Of a stretch of DNA of 64,000 nucleotides, positions 23,287 through 33,971 are shown piece after piece (the stretch's first letter is position 1; each line of letters starts with the position of its first letter). The notes beneath the pieces were generated by a model. The model was not told where the DNA came from, made no database searches, and saw only the letters and a program-made list of their open reading frames with translations. The translations under genes were made by a program, and so were the position numbers. Origin of the DNA: a virus; the IMG/VR virus record IMGVR_UViG_3300010430_000003, positions 146,327 through 210,326 of that record. The stretch is one strand, 5' to 3'.

Positions 23287-26200
23287 ATGGGTGGTCTCGC
23301 TGGTCGTATCAAATATCTTTATGAAGGTGATTTAACCTTCAAAGAACTTAAAACTATTCTTGAAAATATTTCATTAAGTCACCTTCCTCTTTATGAAAAA
23401 GTGGATGGATTTAATTGCTATTTTTCTTGCAGAAGAGGTATGCCTGTAATGGCTCGAAATCTGACCGAAGCACGGTCAGGTGGTTTATCCATCATTGAAC
23501 TATCAAATCGAGAATTTAAAGGTGGCAAGAAAGTAAAGAAGGTTTTTATTGAAGCCCTCAAAAATTTCTCCAAAGATTTCAGACTCTTAGATAAGAAAAT
23601 TTTTGAAAGCGATGGGAATCAAGTTTTTTATAATTTTGAAATCGTTGACAAAAATACGAATCGTTTGTTTGAATATGATAGTAACGGTCTTGTCTTGCAC
23701 AACTCTGGTCATTTCTGCATTGTTGAAAATAATAAACATTTTGTCAATGGCGATGGTTTTAGAACAGGAACTATCGGAACCAAATATATTAAGCATAATT
23801 TCAAAACCTCTCTTAGAGAAAATTCATATTTTGATGGAAGTTCATTCATACAAAGAATTGATGAAGTAATGCAATCAGTTGGATTGTCTGAACTCAATTC
23901 AATTTCAGAATTGAAAGAGCAAGAGAGACTCAAAAAGATTCTTAATGAGTTTTCTAATAATTTAATAAACTCTCTTAAAAGTAATTTTGTTGACAGTCAA
24001 GAAGAAAAAGTAACTCAATTCAAAGATCGAGTCAAAGAAGCTGTTGATTGTCTCCTTGAATATTCAGGTCCAAATCGAGCACAGGTCGTTGAAAAAACTA
24101 TTCATTATTTAAATCAATTCCCTGCCATTGACTCAATCAACTCATGCATTGAAGGGGTTGTTTTTGAACATAATGGCGAAATGTATAAAATGACTGGTTA
24201 TTATAGACCAATAAATCAACTTTATGGCTTTTATCAAAAGACGCTAAAGGAATTCGATTCAGGTCGAATGTATCCCATTGAGCCAAGCTCTTATAATGTT
24301 GACGGTGTTTTGACACATCCTCAAGAAAAAACCATTGCAATCTTTCCTGGAAGTTTTAAACCGCCTCATGCGGGACATTATCGAATCATTGAGGAATTGA
24401 AAAAACTCAAAACTCCTGATGGTTTTCATATTTGTAATAAGATAATCATTTTAATTTCTAATAAGGCTAGAATGGCTCAATCTGATTCGAAAACGACATA
24501 TGTCACCGCTGAGATTGCTAAGGAGCTTTGGGATCTCTATGTGTCAAATGAAGATGCTCAAACTCGAATTGAAGTCCGAGTTGCAGATCACGACACTCCA
24601 ATTAAGTGTGTTTATGATATCATGCTTAATGAAATGTCTCCCGGCGAAACTTTGATGTTGGTCAAATCAGATAAAGACGCAAATTCAGATCGATTTAATG
24701 CTTTTTCAGATTTCTCGGATGAATATGACCTCGGTGTTAAGGTTATTGCAAAAGAAATGAATATCTTCTCTGCGGGAATTTCAGCTTCAAATATGCGAAA
24801 CTGGATTGCTGATGGAGATGAGGATAGGTTCAAGGGCTTCCTCCCAGATCACTTATCGTCAGAAGACCGCGCTCGTGGTTGGGAAATTGTTACCGGCGAA
24901 CAAGACGTTTCGTTATCGGAAGACGACTCTTTTTTTTTAAGTGAAGGGTATGACGCTCTTCTTGAAGGAGAAGGTGATAAACGTCTAAAGAGTGCCCTCC
25001 GGAAGAACCCAGATTATAAAGAACAAATTGAAGCTCTTGCTGCAGCTGATCCTTCCGGCAAAGGAAGGAAGCTTTTGCCTTGGATGGTTCGTGAGCTTGT
25101 GAAGTTTGATGGCGGGCGAACAAATGATATTATTGCTGTGATATCATTGTTTTGGCAATATCGGCAACGCTTTAAAGCAGCTTCCTATTCAACCGATGTT
25201 TTTTCATATTCCTTTGAAGAAATGTTGACTCTCCTTAAGAAATTAAGACTCACTCCTCGTTTTGATAAAATTAAGTCTCCTCTTCGAACATCCAATTATC
25301 CCGGTTCTTCTGTTGTGTATGAGGAAGAAGACTTTGCTGTGATCCGACCATATACCTTTGAAGCTTCATGCTATTTTGGAGAAGAGGGAAATTGGTGCAT
25401 CTCCACTGATGAGGGTCATTGGAATGACTATGTCGGAAATGAATCTGTTCATTATATCTTAATTAATGATTCAATTAAATTTGAAGAAGATGCTGATTCA
25501 AAAATTGATTTTGTTGTAAGACATGGTACAGTCATGGAGCTGTGGGATAAAGAAAATACTTCTCTTGATGAAGATTATGTGGAAGAGCTTCTTGGAGAAG
25601 AACTCTATAACAAAATTGAACAAGCAATTTTAACAGATTATGAACGTGATCCTGATAATGAAGAAACAGGTAATCGCAAAGAGTGGATTGAACTTCAATC
25701 TGAAATCGAAGCTGATTGGGATGATCGAAAATATATCACATGTGAGATATATGAATATGATTCGAATCAATTCCAGCTTCAAGCTTGGATTAATATTGAC
25801 TTCGATGAAACGAATATAAAATTAAAACCGCAAGAACGCTCTTGGCAAGCGTCTCAAAAATTTTCTCATGCAATTGAAGCAATTATTGATTATACAATCG
25901 AAGATGTTGAAGTTGATGGGAATACAATTCGTGGTAGAATATACCTTGATGATGTATTTACCCCTGATGACGCACAATATAGTTGGGAGCAATTAACAGA
26001 AAAAGATGATTATCTTCAAGGTGATGATCCCGATGACAACATTCGAGCCGTTGTTTATTCACTGTGGGAATATGATTTAATTGAAGGTGAAACAGAAAGT
26101 AAAATAGAAATCATCAAAAAGATTGATGAGCATGAGTTCAGATATCTTTTCGCCGATTTTGATGAAGATGAAGGGTTATCGGTTCAATTTACTCTCCACG

Positions 26201-29118
26201 ATTTAATGCTTCCCATTTTTCCAGAACAATATGTTGTTTACGAAGATAAAGGGGTGGATTCAATGCGTCCAAATCTTAGTACACAAAGTTTTCAAAATAG
26301 AGCAATTCGAAGGCAAACTTTCGAAGGTGCAGACATTAAAATGCACACTCAAGATTTCTTTAAAAAGTTTGGAATTCCCACTTCTCTTGTAACAGCATCA
26401 GAACATGAAGTTATTCTTGGAGAAAAAGCTTATGGAATTGTTAATAAGAATTTAGAAATGGAAACGTTTGCTATTAGAGATAATTCTGGTGTTGAAAACT
26501 ATAGAGATGTCGATGAAAAAGTAAGTTCTGTTGTTAAACAGGCCGGGAAGGATCCTGATTTCTTAGATGGTGGAATAATTGTTGAATATTTCTCGAAGGA
26601 TGGGAAACTTGTAAATTCTGTTCATTGCTTGATTAAATTCTATCTTTGGATTGGAATAGCAGATCTTTTATATATTGATGATGATGACATGGCTGGCTTA
26701 TTGGAAAAGCTTATTGAATTAGATTCAAGCGGTAAAATTGAAGATTTCCGAAACCAAATTAAAGATCTCATGCTCGGTAAAAGAAAGTCAATTATGCAAA
26801 ACGATCTCGGAAAGATTAAAGATAATATAGGCAGGAAGTTTATCAATAAATATTATCTATCTAACTTTTCCGTAACAGAATCCTTTACTGATCAAATTCT
26901 CGAAAAATGTGGTCCTGATAAAACTGTGATTGTTTGGAATTCTCCTAGATCCCAAAACACAGATCGATATTTCCTTGAGGCAAAGCTTGAAGCTATGAAT
27001 AGGGGGATTGATACGTCTGGACTATATTACGCTCCAGTTAATGAACTGTTCATGACCGAACATGGATTGATAGAAGAAGAGATTAACGGTGGCTCTTCTG
27101 ATCAGTTTGCTGTTGTTCCAAAGATGAATACAAAGGCTCATTGGTATTTTAATAATTTAAAATCAGAAAATCAATTGGCTTCTCATTCATTGGGACAGTT
27201 TCATCTGTTAATGGAAAATCGGGTTGATTTCTTGCAAAAGACATATCGTGAGAAAATCTTCAATAAACTGATCAATAGTCTTTCAACACTCTATATGGCA
27301 GAAATAGACCACTTAAATTGGAAGTGGCTTGGACCTCACATTGTTGCCGCTTATAATAAGGTAATGGAAGACCCAGCCGTCGGGAAAGAATTCCTTTCAA
27401 GTATTGAAGAAGACGACATTGAAAGACTTAAAGACCAAGCATTTGAATTCTTTATTGAAACTGATCCTTCTAAAAAGAAAAAGTTTAGCCAATGGTTGAT
27501 CTTTAAGTTCATTAAAGATGACGAACGCATTGAAGATATCTGGAGTTCGGCGGGTGATCTTGAGCTTTTCGAACAGCTTGTTGAACGAAGAATTATTATA
27601 GGTGTTGATATCAACAAACTTTCATTAAAAGAACTTAAGGAAATTGTTGATGAACATGAAGGTCAGTTATCTGCTCGACAGAAGGCTGGTAAAGGAAATG
27701 AAAAAGAGCAAATCATCAAGAATGAAATGGACGTTCTCTTTCAAGAGGGTGAATATGTGATGGCTCTCCCAAAAACACAAAGAGCTTCATGTCTTCTTGG
27801 TACAGAAACACATTGGTGCACCGCTTCTCGTGGTGATCGCAACATGTTCGACATGTATTACGAAGACGGCCCGTTGATTGTGTTTATTACTCCTGCCGGA
27901 AAGTGGCAGCTTCACATTGAATCAAAACAATTTATGGATAAGAATGATTCTCCTATTGATTTATTACCTTGGATTGATTCCAATGAAATTTTCAAGGAAC
28001 CATTTTTGAAATTCTTGCTCGATAATGAATGGGATAAAAAGCTCGATCAAACCGATATATATAGCCAATATTTTTCAAATTCGGGAATGTTGAGAGATCT
28101 CTCCATTTTTATATTCCAAGAAACATTAACAGAAGAAAAAGCATTGGATATCATTGAGAAAGGCTCCCGACCAAAGAATGCTACTCACGTTGATTTTGGA
28201 ACCAAAAACTCATTTGGTGGGGAAATCAAGAATAAAATGTTATTCGATATCTTATGGAATTCAGAACATAAGAAGTGGTGGAAGCTTAAGAGACGTTGGG
28301 TTAGAAAACTTGTAGAAGCTTATGAAAATGGGGTCGTTCCCGTGGGTCAAATAAGAAAAGATATGGTGAATAACTTTATCAATCTAATGCCTCCCAACGA
28401 TTTCAAAGAAATCTTCATGCCAACTTTTATAAGTGAAAATTATCCAACATCCAGAGAGATGTTTTTGAAAACAATTGCTATTGATGCGCTCGGTTTGAAA
28501 ATTGGATTCAATACAGAGAAAGGAGCACAGAATTTTCTAACAATCCTCGAAAGAATAATTAAAAATGAGGGTGAGTCTAATCTTGCATGGAAATCATATC
28601 AAAATTCCATCGAACCAAAAGGTTGGGTGTTAGAGATGCTTAAAAGACCAAATCTTAAAGAATGGTATTCTCAAAAATTTGAAGAATTAGATTATGCTCA
28701 AAGAACCGCCGTAGCCTTCGATATGCTTAAAACAGGTAAGAAAAACAATGATCAAATGTCAGGCTCCTCAAATGTTGAATTCGTTGACGATAACTCCCCA
28801 ATTACCAAGTTCTTCATTCCAAGACTCAAAAAAGGAATTTCGGGATCAAAAAAATATAATGACTTCCCAAAATTGGGAGGTTATTTATCGCAATGGGAAG
28901 AGATTAACAAACTTGATCCAGAGATTACCGATATTTGGGTTGATACATTCTTAAATGCAGTGGAAAATGGAAAGGATAGTGATTCAAAAGAAAGGCAAAT
29001 GTCATGGATGTACGGTAACATTACTGATAAACATGGGAATCCTATTAGATATGGACCACCTCAATTCAAACAGTTGATTGAACCATTGAAAAAAGCACTT
29101 GGGCGAGATCATGATTGA
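23287..29118 (+). CDS. Giant multidomain nucleotidyltransferase protein (1943 aa)
   Basis: Residues about 1-330 resemble the ATP/NAD-dependent ligase nucleotidyltransferase fold: a KVDG lysine motif at 38-41 and an EGVVFEHNGEMYK segment near 288. Residues about 348-545 form a cytidylyltransferase-like HIGH-superfamily domain, GSFKPPHAGH near 355-364 and ISASNMR near 497. Two later copies of an unrecognised domain share ASC-x-x-G-x-x-x-x-WC-[IT]-[SA] (near 692 and 1500). The C-terminus is helical. Size and operon position suggest a virion or injected protein. Which nucleotide chemistry it performs, and whether both domains are active, is unknown. Confidence 0.75.
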   Translation: MGGLAGRIKYLYEGDLTFKELKTILENISLSHLPLYEKVDGFNCYFSCRRGMPVMARNLTEARSGGLSIIELSNREFKGGKKVKKVFIEALKNFSKDFRLLDKKIFESDGNQVFYNFEIVDKNTNRLFEYDSNGLVLHNSGHFCIVENNKHFVNGDGFRTGTIGTKYIKHNFKTSLRENSYFDGSSFIQRIDEVMQSVGLSELNSISELKEQERLKKILNEFSNNLINSLKSNFVDSQEEKVTQFKDRVKEAVDCLLEYSGPNRAQVVEKTIHYLNQFPAIDSINSCIEGVVFEHNGEMYKMTGYYRPINQLYGFYQKTLKEFDSGRMYPIEPSSYNVDGVLTHPQEKTIAIFPGSFKPPHAGHYRIIEELKKLKTPDGFHICNKIIILISNKARMAQSDSKTTYVTAEIAKELWDLYVSNEDAQTRIEVRVADHDTPIKCVYDIMLNEMSPGETLMLVKSDKDANSDRFNAFSDFSDEYDLGVKVIAKEMNIFSAGISASNMRNWIADGDEDRFKGFLPDHLSSEDRARGWEIVTGEQDVSLSEDDSFFLSEGYDALLEGEGDKRLKSALRKNPDYKEQIEALAAADPSGKGRKLLPWMVRELVKFDGGRTNDIIAVISLFWQYRQRFKAASYSTDVFSYSFEEMLTLLKKLRLTPRFDKIKSPLRTSNYPGSSVVYEEEDFAVIRPYTFEASCYFGEEGNWCISTDEGHWNDYVGNESVHYILINDSIKFEEDADSKIDFVVRHGTVMELWDKENTSLDEDYVEELLGEELYNKIEQAILTDYERDPDNEETGNRKEWIELQSEIEADWDDRKYITCEIYEYDSNQFQLQAWINIDFDETNIKLKPQERSWQASQKFSHAIEAIIDYTIEDVEVDGNTIRGRIYLDDVFTPDDAQYSWEQLTEKDDYLQGDDPDDNIRAVVYSLWEYDLIEGETESKIEIIKKIDEHEFRYLFADFDEDEGLSVQFTLHDLMLPIFPEQYVVYEDKGVDSMRPNLSTQSFQNRAIRRQTFEGADIKMHTQDFFKKFGIPTSLVTASEHEVILGEKAYGIVNKNLEMETFAIRDNSGVENYRDVDEKVSSVVKQAGKDPDFLDGGIIVEYFSKDGKLVNSVHCLIKFYLWIGIADLLYIDDDDMAGLLEKLIELDSSGKIEDFRNQIKDLMLGKRKSIMQNDLGKIKDNIGRKFINKYYLSNFSVTESFTDQILEKCGPDKTVIVWNSPRSQNTDRYFLEAKLEAMNRGIDTSGLYYAPVNELFMTEHGLIEEEINGGSSDQFAVVPKMNTKAHWYFNNLKSENQLASHSLGQFHLLMENRVDFLQKTYREKIFNKLINSLSTLYMAEIDHLNWKWLGPHIVAAYNKVMEDPAVGKEFLSSIEEDDIERLKDQAFEFFIETDPSKKKKFSQWLIFKFIKDDERIEDIWSSAGDLELFEQLVERRIIIGVDINKLSLKELKEIVDEHEGQLSARQKAGKGNEKEQIIKNEMDVLFQEGEYVMALPKTQRASCLLGTETHWCTASRGDRNMFDMYYEDGPLIVFITPAGKWQLHIESKQFMDKNDSPIDLLPWIDSNEIFKEPFLKFLLDNEWDKKLDQTDIYSQYFSNSGMLRDLSIFIFQETLTEEKALDIIEKGSRPKNATHVDFGTKNSFGGEIKNKMLFDILWNSEHKKWWKLKRRWVRKLVEAYENGVVPVGQIRKDMVNNFINLMPPNDFKEIFMPTFISENYPTSREMFLKTIAIDALGLKIGFNTEKGAQNFLTILERIIKNEGESNLAWKSYQNSIEPKGWVLEMLKRPNLKEWYSQKFEELDYAQRTAVAFDMLKTGKKNNDQMSGSSNVEFVDDNSPITKFFIPRLKKGISGSKKYNDFPKLGGYLSQWEEINKLDPEITDIWVDTFLNAVENGKDSDSKERQMSWMYGNITDKHGNPIRYGPPQFKQLIEPLKKALGRDHD

Positions 29119-32811: not shown

Positions 32812-33038
32812 CCCGCTCCTCTTTTAATTTCTCTTAAATCCAAAAGACACACCCACAAAAGAAAATTCTCTATACAATATTCTCCAAAAACAATCAATTC
32901 TTCATGTTCGTAAGATTCTATCACAGATTGTTTGGGGTCTATTTCCCATATTTTGGGGTTATTAATATCAACAGTGAAGTTTTGATTATATTGAAGAACA
33001 AAACTAGCCTTCACCATTTTATTAACAAATGAATTCAT
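32808..33038 (-). CDS. MNIN-family small protein (76 aa)
   Basis: Function unknown. MNSFVNKMVKASFVLQYN start; acidic middle, basic end (LREIKRGAG). ATGA overlaps at both ends. Its N-terminus resembles the next gene upstream (KAGFVRQ/KASFVLQ). Confidence 0.75.
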   Translation of the reverse strand: MNSFVNKMVKASFVLQYNQNFTVDINNPKIWEIDPKQSVIESYEHEELIVFGEYCIENFLLWVCLLDLREIKRGAG

Positions 33039-33247
33039 TTATGTTCATTGGAGAATGATAAGTAGTAGTAGTTTACATCTTCTATACATCCAGAAATAAC
33101 ATGTTTTGAATATTCAAGTATAGATGCCATACTTGAATATAGCGCTACGGAATAGTGCTTTCCTGGTATGGACGTCCATAAGAACCGACCATGTTGACGA
33201 ACAAAGCCAGCTTTAATCAGATTATTTATTGTTGAATGTGAATTCAT
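33035..33247 (-). CDS. MNIN-family small protein (70 aa)
   Basis: Function unknown. MNSHSTINNLIKAGFVRQ start; Tyr/Ser-rich C-terminus. Its start lies immediately after the tRNA at 33249-33330, so tRNA 3' processing and translation initiation share this boundary. Confidence 0.7.
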   Translation of the reverse strand: MNSHSTINNLIKAGFVRQHGRFLWTSIPGKHYSVALYSSMASILEYSKHVISGCIEDVNYYYLSFSNEHK

Positions 33248-33248
33248 A

Positions 33249-33330
33249 GCGGGAGAGGGATTCGAACCCTCGAAGCCTTAACGGCAAAAGGTTATGAGCC
33301 TTTTCACTTTAACCACTTGTATATCCCGCA
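33249..33330 (-). tRNA. Class II tRNA with anticodon CAT (unusual)
   Basis: The acceptor is GCGGGA with TCCCGC plus a T-T mismatch at position 1:72. The D-loop contains GTGG, and the T-arm GAGGG-TTCGAAT-CCCTC is perfect. The anticodon loop CTCATAA gives CAT (Met, or Ile after C34 modification); its stem AAAAG/CCTTT has one A-C mismatch. A 15-base variable arm with GCC/GGC pairing is typical of Leu, Ser or Tyr tRNAs, not Met. The 1:72 mismatch recalls initiator tRNA, but the G-C pairs initiators carry in the anticodon stem are absent. Amino-acid identity is uncertain. Confidence 0.7.
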
Positions 33331-33686
33331 GCAAATTTATGATTAAATGCTCCGATTCTTCAACCACCACTTATGCCAATCTCCATCCTTGCGGGGAGGA
33401 GCAACCTTTAAGGTTGAGACAATCAGCTTAAGTCTTCTAACGGTACCTATCCCCAAGGTTCAGGCCGATCACTCGATCTGCACGCACCTCACTTAATCAT
33501 AAAAGCAAATCCTACCCCGAAGTCTCTCACCAATTAATAATCAACCGCACGAAAATTATTAATGACTTCGATCTCTCAACCTATGGAGTATCATAGGTCA
33601 CCAGCTTTGTATCATTCAAGAGCGAAAGGACAACGACATGAATGAATGAATTTTGTCTGATTGTTTGAACACCCGCAGCACAAGTT
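33331..33686 (-). ncRNA. Candidate structured RNA of about 350 nt with its own promoter
   Basis: No ORF fits this stretch. Nested helices are visible: a 10-bp long-range stem (33337-33346 with 33493-33502); CGAAGTC with GACTTCG (33518-33524, 33564-33570) enclosing a 9-bp ATTAATAAT stem; ACCTATG with CATAGGT (33579-33585, 33592-33598); and CAACC-TTTAA-GGTTG (33402-33416). A promoter lies just upstream. The transcript would run into the class II tRNA. The 5' end repeats TGCTGCGGG, which also precedes the tRNA. I do not recognise a known RNA class; ROOL and GOLLD RNAs are much longer. Confidence 0.6.
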
Positions 33687-33692
33687 ATTAAC

Positions 33693-33720
33693 ATTATAGT
33701 ATATGTTGCAATTTTCTCAA
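33693..33720 (-). promoter_or_regulatory. Sigma-70-type promoter TTGAGA-N16-TATAAT
   Basis: TTGAGA (33720-33715) and TATAAT (33698-33693) with a 16-base spacer. Transcription would start near 33686, with no start codon following, so its product is the structured RNA and tRNA, then the family genes beyond. Confidence 0.75.
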
Positions 33721-33727
33721 GAGAAAT

Positions 33728-33928
33728 TTATTCATCAATCCAACCTGCTTGTGAAGCACACCATGTCTTGACCATTTCTCTTTCTCGATAACCTAATCTA
33801 TCCCAAATAGCATCAAGTTCATCAAGCAACTTTTCTACTTTAGGACGATGCGTAGCTGATAGCGGTTTCTCTTTGCACAACTCTTGTGCCTGTAAGAAAC
33901 GCTCTTTGTAAATCTCAATTGTTTCCAT
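33728..33928 (-). CDS. Hypothetical protein (66 aa)
   Basis: No recognised family; helical and charged (METIEIYKERFLQAQE start). A GGAGGG site precedes the start. It ends just before the promoter of the structured RNA. Confidence 0.6.
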   Translation of the reverse strand: METIEIYKERFLQAQELCKEKPLSATHRPKVEKLLDELDAIWDRLGYREREMVKTWCASQAGWIDE

Positions 33929-33971
33929 GGATTCCCTCCGCTATGAAATCATATAAACTTTAGTCAGAAAA

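Follow-up and report, generated by a model that had tools for sequence, protein, structure and literature searches.

A class promoter, a 356-nt non-coding leader and tRNA(CAU) form one transcription unit in a deep-branching T4-like phage and possibly yield a stable orphan RNA

In the tRNA cluster of phage T4, short stable RNAs that are not tRNAs (RNA C and RNA D) are made together with the phage tRNAs and split off by processing, and YrlA, a bacterial Y RNA, carries a tRNA-mimicking domain. Two further classes, GOLLD and ROOL, are found near tRNA islands in phages and have no known function; both have strongly conserved, elaborate folds, GOLLD is often >800 nt long, and the known GOLLD/ROOL classes form a homo-oligomeric cage in cryo-EM (PMC12286853). 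We investigated a window of 64,000 nt (bases 146327-210326 of the 210,326-bp IMG/VR virus record IMGVR_UViG_3300010430_000003) in which ~356 nt of non-coding sequence adjoin a tRNA gene (Table 1). The RNA that would be read from this stretch resembles GOLLD and ROOL in being phage-encoded, in lying beside a tRNA gene and in encoding no protein, but it is shorter than GOLLD often is, and it is a single sequence whereas their folds are conserved.

The proteins of the record make up a large T4-like myovirus set (PhoH, glycosyltransferases, exonuclease), and the phage is a member of a deep-branching, little-explored T4-like lineage. Identity to IMG/VR relatives is at most 44% for PhoH and at most 43% for terminase, except that 33 aa at one end of the terminase recur unchanged in a single short fragment; among isolates, Flavobacterium phages come closest in terminase (36.5%). 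ORFs cover ~89% of the record, and the remaining 11% is non-coding. Elsewhere in the window (23287-29118, plus strand) a 1943-aa protein carries a stretch resembling cytidyltransferases and a KVDG motif near its N-terminus, and is possibly a fused nucleotidyltransferase/ligase; peptide patterns taken from it matched no viral contigs.

The stretch at 33331-33686 is non-coding. Each of its six frames contains 5-10 stops, the longest ORF is 49 aa, the codon log-likelihood is at the level of the wrong frames of real genes (noise), and its small ORFs have no match in Pfam. No ORF-free gap in the 210-kb record is longer than the one that touches the stretch, whose G+C content is 42.4% vs 34.0% for the phage's non-coding DNA, an equally high G+C being reached by ~10% of genome windows.

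Table 1 Coordinates of the features discussed, in window positions (5′ and 3′ refer to the minus-strand RNA)
Feature	Position	Strand	Basis or remark
Sigma-70-type promoter TTGAGA-16-TATAAT	33693..33720	-	Ends 7 nt before 33686; 16-nt spacing class enriched
Non-coding RNA, ~356 nt	33331..33686	-	Start (33686) from promoter position, 3′ end (RNase P site) from tRNA 5′ end; both predicted
Hairpin ACCUAUG..CAUAGGU (RNA 88-109)	33578..33599	-	Predicted
Two-segment hairpin UCGAAGUC-AUUAAUAAUU / GAUUAUUAAU-GACUUCGG (RNA 116-170)	33517..33571	-	z = -2.9 alone, selected segment
Long-range helix, 5′ arm UUUAUGAUUAAGUG	33490..33503	-	Helix search
Long-range helix, 3′ arm CAUUUAAUCAUAAA	33336..33349	-	Helix search
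3′ domain (RNA 181-356), closed by long-range helix, ends one base before tRNA	33331..33506	-	z = -1.83
tRNA, anticodon CAU, no encoded CCA	33247..33330	-	ARAGORN, Rfam
70-aa ORF, ATG overlapping last base of tRNA, no SD	33035..33247	-	Codon usage at noise level
Y-RNA-like unit A	about 11261-11147	-	Permuted-tRNA scan, YrlA match
Y-RNA-like unit B	T-arm 11078-11062, D-arm 11035-11019	-	Permuted-tRNA scan

A local scan for consensus promoters returned 10 sites vs 10.6 expected, so that a single consensus match carries little weight. We rely on the class to which the promoter ahead of the RNA belongs. When TTGA...TATAAT was counted across the whole record at every spacing from 12 to 21, spacing 16 accounted for eight sites in the phage's non-coding DNA (0.3 expected), the site ahead of the RNA included, and the other spacings for few. 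The spacing-16 arrangement is thus well supported as a statistically real promoter class in this phage; examples of its sites are 60690 (+), 120241 (+), 154054 (-), 158450 (-) and 180032 (-) of the record. Several other promoters of the class sit just ahead of a reading frame. At several class sites an ATG stands at, or a few bases from, the predicted start, which suggests that these promoters may drive leaderless genes. Downstream of the RNA's own promoter, just one frame within 700 nt is led by an SD: a GTG frame of 30 aa, at 316 nt, that continues into the tRNA. The promoter region directly upstream of the RNA has a G+C content of 22%, and no promoter was found ahead of the plus strand of the stretch.

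The first base of tRNA(CAU) directly follows the last base of the RNA. The variable arm of this tRNA, at 11 nt, is of the long-arm (class II) type; the tRNA also has a U1.U72 mismatch, and its D- and T-arms resemble those of tRNA-Ser/Tyr, not tRNA-Met. The 70-aa ORF behind it is perhaps untranslated, since its codon usage is that of noise; phage homologs sought for this and the adjacent 66-aa ORF numbered zero, and a search for a terminator-like hairpin downstream on the minus strand found none. The initial annotation had described an ORF-free stretch with a consensus promoter about 7 bases before it and a tRNA after it, and had given no strand. All three elements hold, and the strand is minus: promoter and tRNA both lie on it, and the RNA (33686 to 33331) is therefore truly upstream of the tRNA in one transcript. 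Promoter, leader and tRNA form a real transcription unit, and the broader proposal of a separate non-coding unit with its own promoter, ending in a tRNA, is supported by the promoter class, the strand and the codon evidence.

The same annotation had reported nested helices, and these are present: a long-range helix (RNA 184-197/338-351) of 14 pairs, one of them G-U and 11 of them consecutive Watson-Crick pairs, and the two hairpins of Table 1. None of 200 shuffles of the RNA sequence attained a Watson-Crick stem of 11 bp, and 20 of 590 same-genome windows of equal length (356 nt; 3.4%) contain one. The annotation's further description as a structured RNA, that is, one folding beyond chance, was not borne out by folding energy. 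An energy below that of shuffled sequence would be expected of a structured RNA, but the minus-strand MFE of the whole RNA equals that of shuffles (z = -0.02, 43 of 100 shuffles as good) and is ordinary for this genome, in which random windows give z = -0.7 +/- 1.05. Taken separately, the first 180 nt are likewise ordinary, at z = 0.28, and z for the last 176 nt is -1.83 (3.5% of shuffles as good, uncorrected for selection of the segment). The plus strand of the stretch folds somewhat better than its shuffles (z = -1.57). For the isolated RNA the MFE is -92.9 without the long helix vs -91.8 with it. The MFE structure of the full transcript (RNA plus tRNA), a single predicted fold of a single sequence, has the two local hairpins, the closed 3′ domain and intact acceptor and T arms of the tRNA as separate modules. 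We regard the modelled structure of the RNA as plausible.

A blastn search of the RNA against 50,697 INPHARED phages returned no relatives, and a whole-record search of 50 IMG/VR records that share phoH or terminase (distant kin) returned no homolog, the best short matches inspected there being coding or unrelated DNA. No homolog was obtained with four RNA patterns of 16-17 nt searched in 2.9 million viral contigs and followed by nhmmer, with one tRNA pattern, or with one 20-nt pattern searched in bacterial genome contigs. An exact 18-nt match in L112 lies inside a dUTPase gene and was rejected as chance. A covariance model of the 3′ domain, applied to 45 viral records, gave no homolog (the highest-scoring match outside the phage itself reached 10.8 bits, at E = 0.065, in a record that an RNA pattern had retrieved), and the phage's own record contains no paralog of the RNA by any search, this model included. 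Rfam, run on 33000-33960 at gathering thresholds and permissively up to E = 10, returned only tRNA-related matches, so that the RNA falls in no known Rfam class, in line with the initial annotation, which recognized none; the GOLLD and ROOL models gave no match in this range. Neither ARAGORN nor Rfam returned a tmRNA, with its tRNA-like domain and tag ORF, and the YrlA arrangement (T-arm, acceptor stem and D-arm permuted in a long stem) is not that of this RNA, 33331-33686 containing no permuted unit with a full seven-pair acceptor and a D-arm. By the tests run, the RNA lies outside GOLLD, ROOL, tmRNA and YrlA. Set aside as candidate identities for the stretch were a tmRNA, a group I intron, a Y RNA, a decayed tRNA array and a coding gene.

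Two unannotated tRNA-mimicking units lie at window 11234-11019 on the minus strand (units A and B, Table 1). The order of elements in both is T-arm, 3′ acceptor strand, a 9- or 12-nt linker, 5′ acceptor strand and D-arm, as in a circularly permuted tRNA, with seven of seven acceptor pairs in each; unconstrained folding recovers the same acceptor and T arms. A loose permuted-tRNA scan has 0.45 chance matches per shuffled genome, and the strict scan returned these two units only, across all loci scanned. Relatives of unit A, likewise unannotated, occur in actinophages: Rhodococcus phage NiceHouse and Arthrobacter phages Racecar, Mimi and Talia1610. With the sequences from Racecar and NiceHouse as queries, Gordonia phages GodonK and Phendrix were reached as well. 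The three aligned sequences show covarying acceptor pairs (TCCGCCC/GGGCGGG, TCCGCGC/GCGCGGG and CCCCGGC/GCCGGGG). In a permissive scan, Rfam matches unit A to YrlA with E = 0.009 and 24.2 bits, short of the curated 69 bits, and in the Racecar locus YrlA is matched separately (32.9 bits) ~70 nt after the unit. Given these matches, circularly permuted tRNA genes were dropped in favor of Y RNA, and the units are best read as putative phage Y-RNA-like RNAs; a Ro60-type (TROVE) protein sought in the record was not seen. Directly behind them (window 10918-10850, minus strand) is a tRNA of normal order, found by Rfam and missed by ARAGORN, with an anticodon that is apparently GTG (His). An isolated perfect T-arm ATGGGTTCAAATCCCAT, around which no tRNA was called, lies at window 8387 (+). 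Outside the window, a further stretch of non-coding RNA at record 137310-137660 (L088 17310-17660) holds a site of the TTGACA type, an odd 126-nt tRNA with a 50-nt insertion in its anticodon loop (ARAGORN) and a second tRNA-like 3′ end, CCA included. The Y-RNA-like units may serve RNA biologists more than the RNA at 33331-33686.

For the latter, our leading reading, to which we give a probability of roughly 0.45, is that the RNA forms the 5′ portion of a tRNA precursor and endures with a role of its own. Host RNA polymerase would start at about 33686 on the minus strand, a position estimated from the phage-type -35/-10 promoter, and would read ~356 non-coding nt and then tRNA(CAU). Since the first base of the tRNA follows the last base of the RNA, RNase P should cut between 33331 and 33330, at once making the tRNA 5′ end and releasing the upstream RNA. 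The freed RNA is predicted to have a loose 5′ third, the two local hairpins and a ~175-nt 3′ domain closed by the 14-pair helix beside the tRNA acceptor stem, and would most likely persist as a small accessory phage RNA, not a message, in a setting like that of the stable RNAs of the T4 tRNA cluster; it is possibly a stable orphan RNA. A lasting RNA is favored by the promoter class (8 vs 0.3), the non-coding frames, the G+C content, contact with the longest ORF-free gap, the absence of the 11-bp stem from 200 shuffles, the 3′ half (P = 0.035) and the modular fold of the full transcript; against it stand the shuffle-like energy, an equal stem in 3.4% of windows, an MFE structure without the long helix, and the lack of a terminator and of homologs in the searches above. 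It is unlikely that the RNA represents a new class, namely mid-sized phage RNAs with their own promoter, released by RNase P from a tRNA precursor, with a 3′ domain closed beside the tRNA, and so far in a single phage lineage. If stable, the RNA would add one more orphan to the few phage RNAs beside tRNAs whose jobs are unexplained, and it would do so for a T4-like branch that has just ~36% of terminase in common with its nearest isolate.

The promoter could instead serve the tRNA only, the 356 nt being a functionless spacer, a decayed gene or a decayed tRNA array that is degraded after RNase P cleavage. We hold this less probable without discounting it: ordinary folding energy, the lack of homologs or of any conserved feature, and other loosely packed non-coding DNA near tRNAs in this phage all agree with it, but the G+C content is well above that of the phage's other non-coding DNA, no protein or tRNA remnant is detectable, and 356 nt is long for a useless leader in a genome so densely covered by ORFs. 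Even if the RNA were a mere leader, a clear promoter class would be documented for this phage and a false lead removed.

It is improbable that the fold acts in cis, controlling as an attenuator or RNase site how the tRNA and the small genes behind it are transcribed or processed. On the minus strand, all that lies downstream has the stretch as its 5′ leader, and alternative pairings, e.g., AGGUUGAGA (105-113) with UCUCAACCU (268-276), compete with the local hairpins; however, the minus strand has no terminator-like hairpin, and Rfam recognizes no riboswitch or leader. Descent from a known class (GOLLD, ROOL, tmRNA, YrlA Y RNA or group I intron) has very little probability and is largely excluded: the phage setting next to a tRNA fits GOLLD/ROOL (PMC12286853), many PhoH-sharing relatives have a tmRNA within 6 kb of phoH, and YrlA-like RNAs occur in the same phage at 11 kb, but only tRNA-related Rfam families appear up to E = 10, with no ARAGORN tmRNA and no permuted unit. 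A missed coding region of frameshifted or tiny genes is scarcely credible: the 49-aa ORF, on the plus strand, speaks for it, but there are stops in every frame, wrong-frame codon usage and no Pfam match.

Returning to a lasting RNA freed from a tRNA precursor, two other described systems resemble it in setting. In many marine T4-like relatives (19 loci, among others) phoH is preceded, at a distance of a few kb, by a tmRNA gene, and none was found in this phage. The tmRNA of these related phages likewise lies within a few kb of phoH and ends in a T-arm and acceptor stem, but the tRNA at 33330-33247 has all its parts in the usual order, there is no tag ORF, and the strand is opposite to that of phoH. 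With RNA C and RNA D of T4 the likeness is one of setting, a non-tRNA RNA made with a phage tRNA; compared with those two, the RNA described here is longer, precedes just one tRNA and is served by a promoter of its own.
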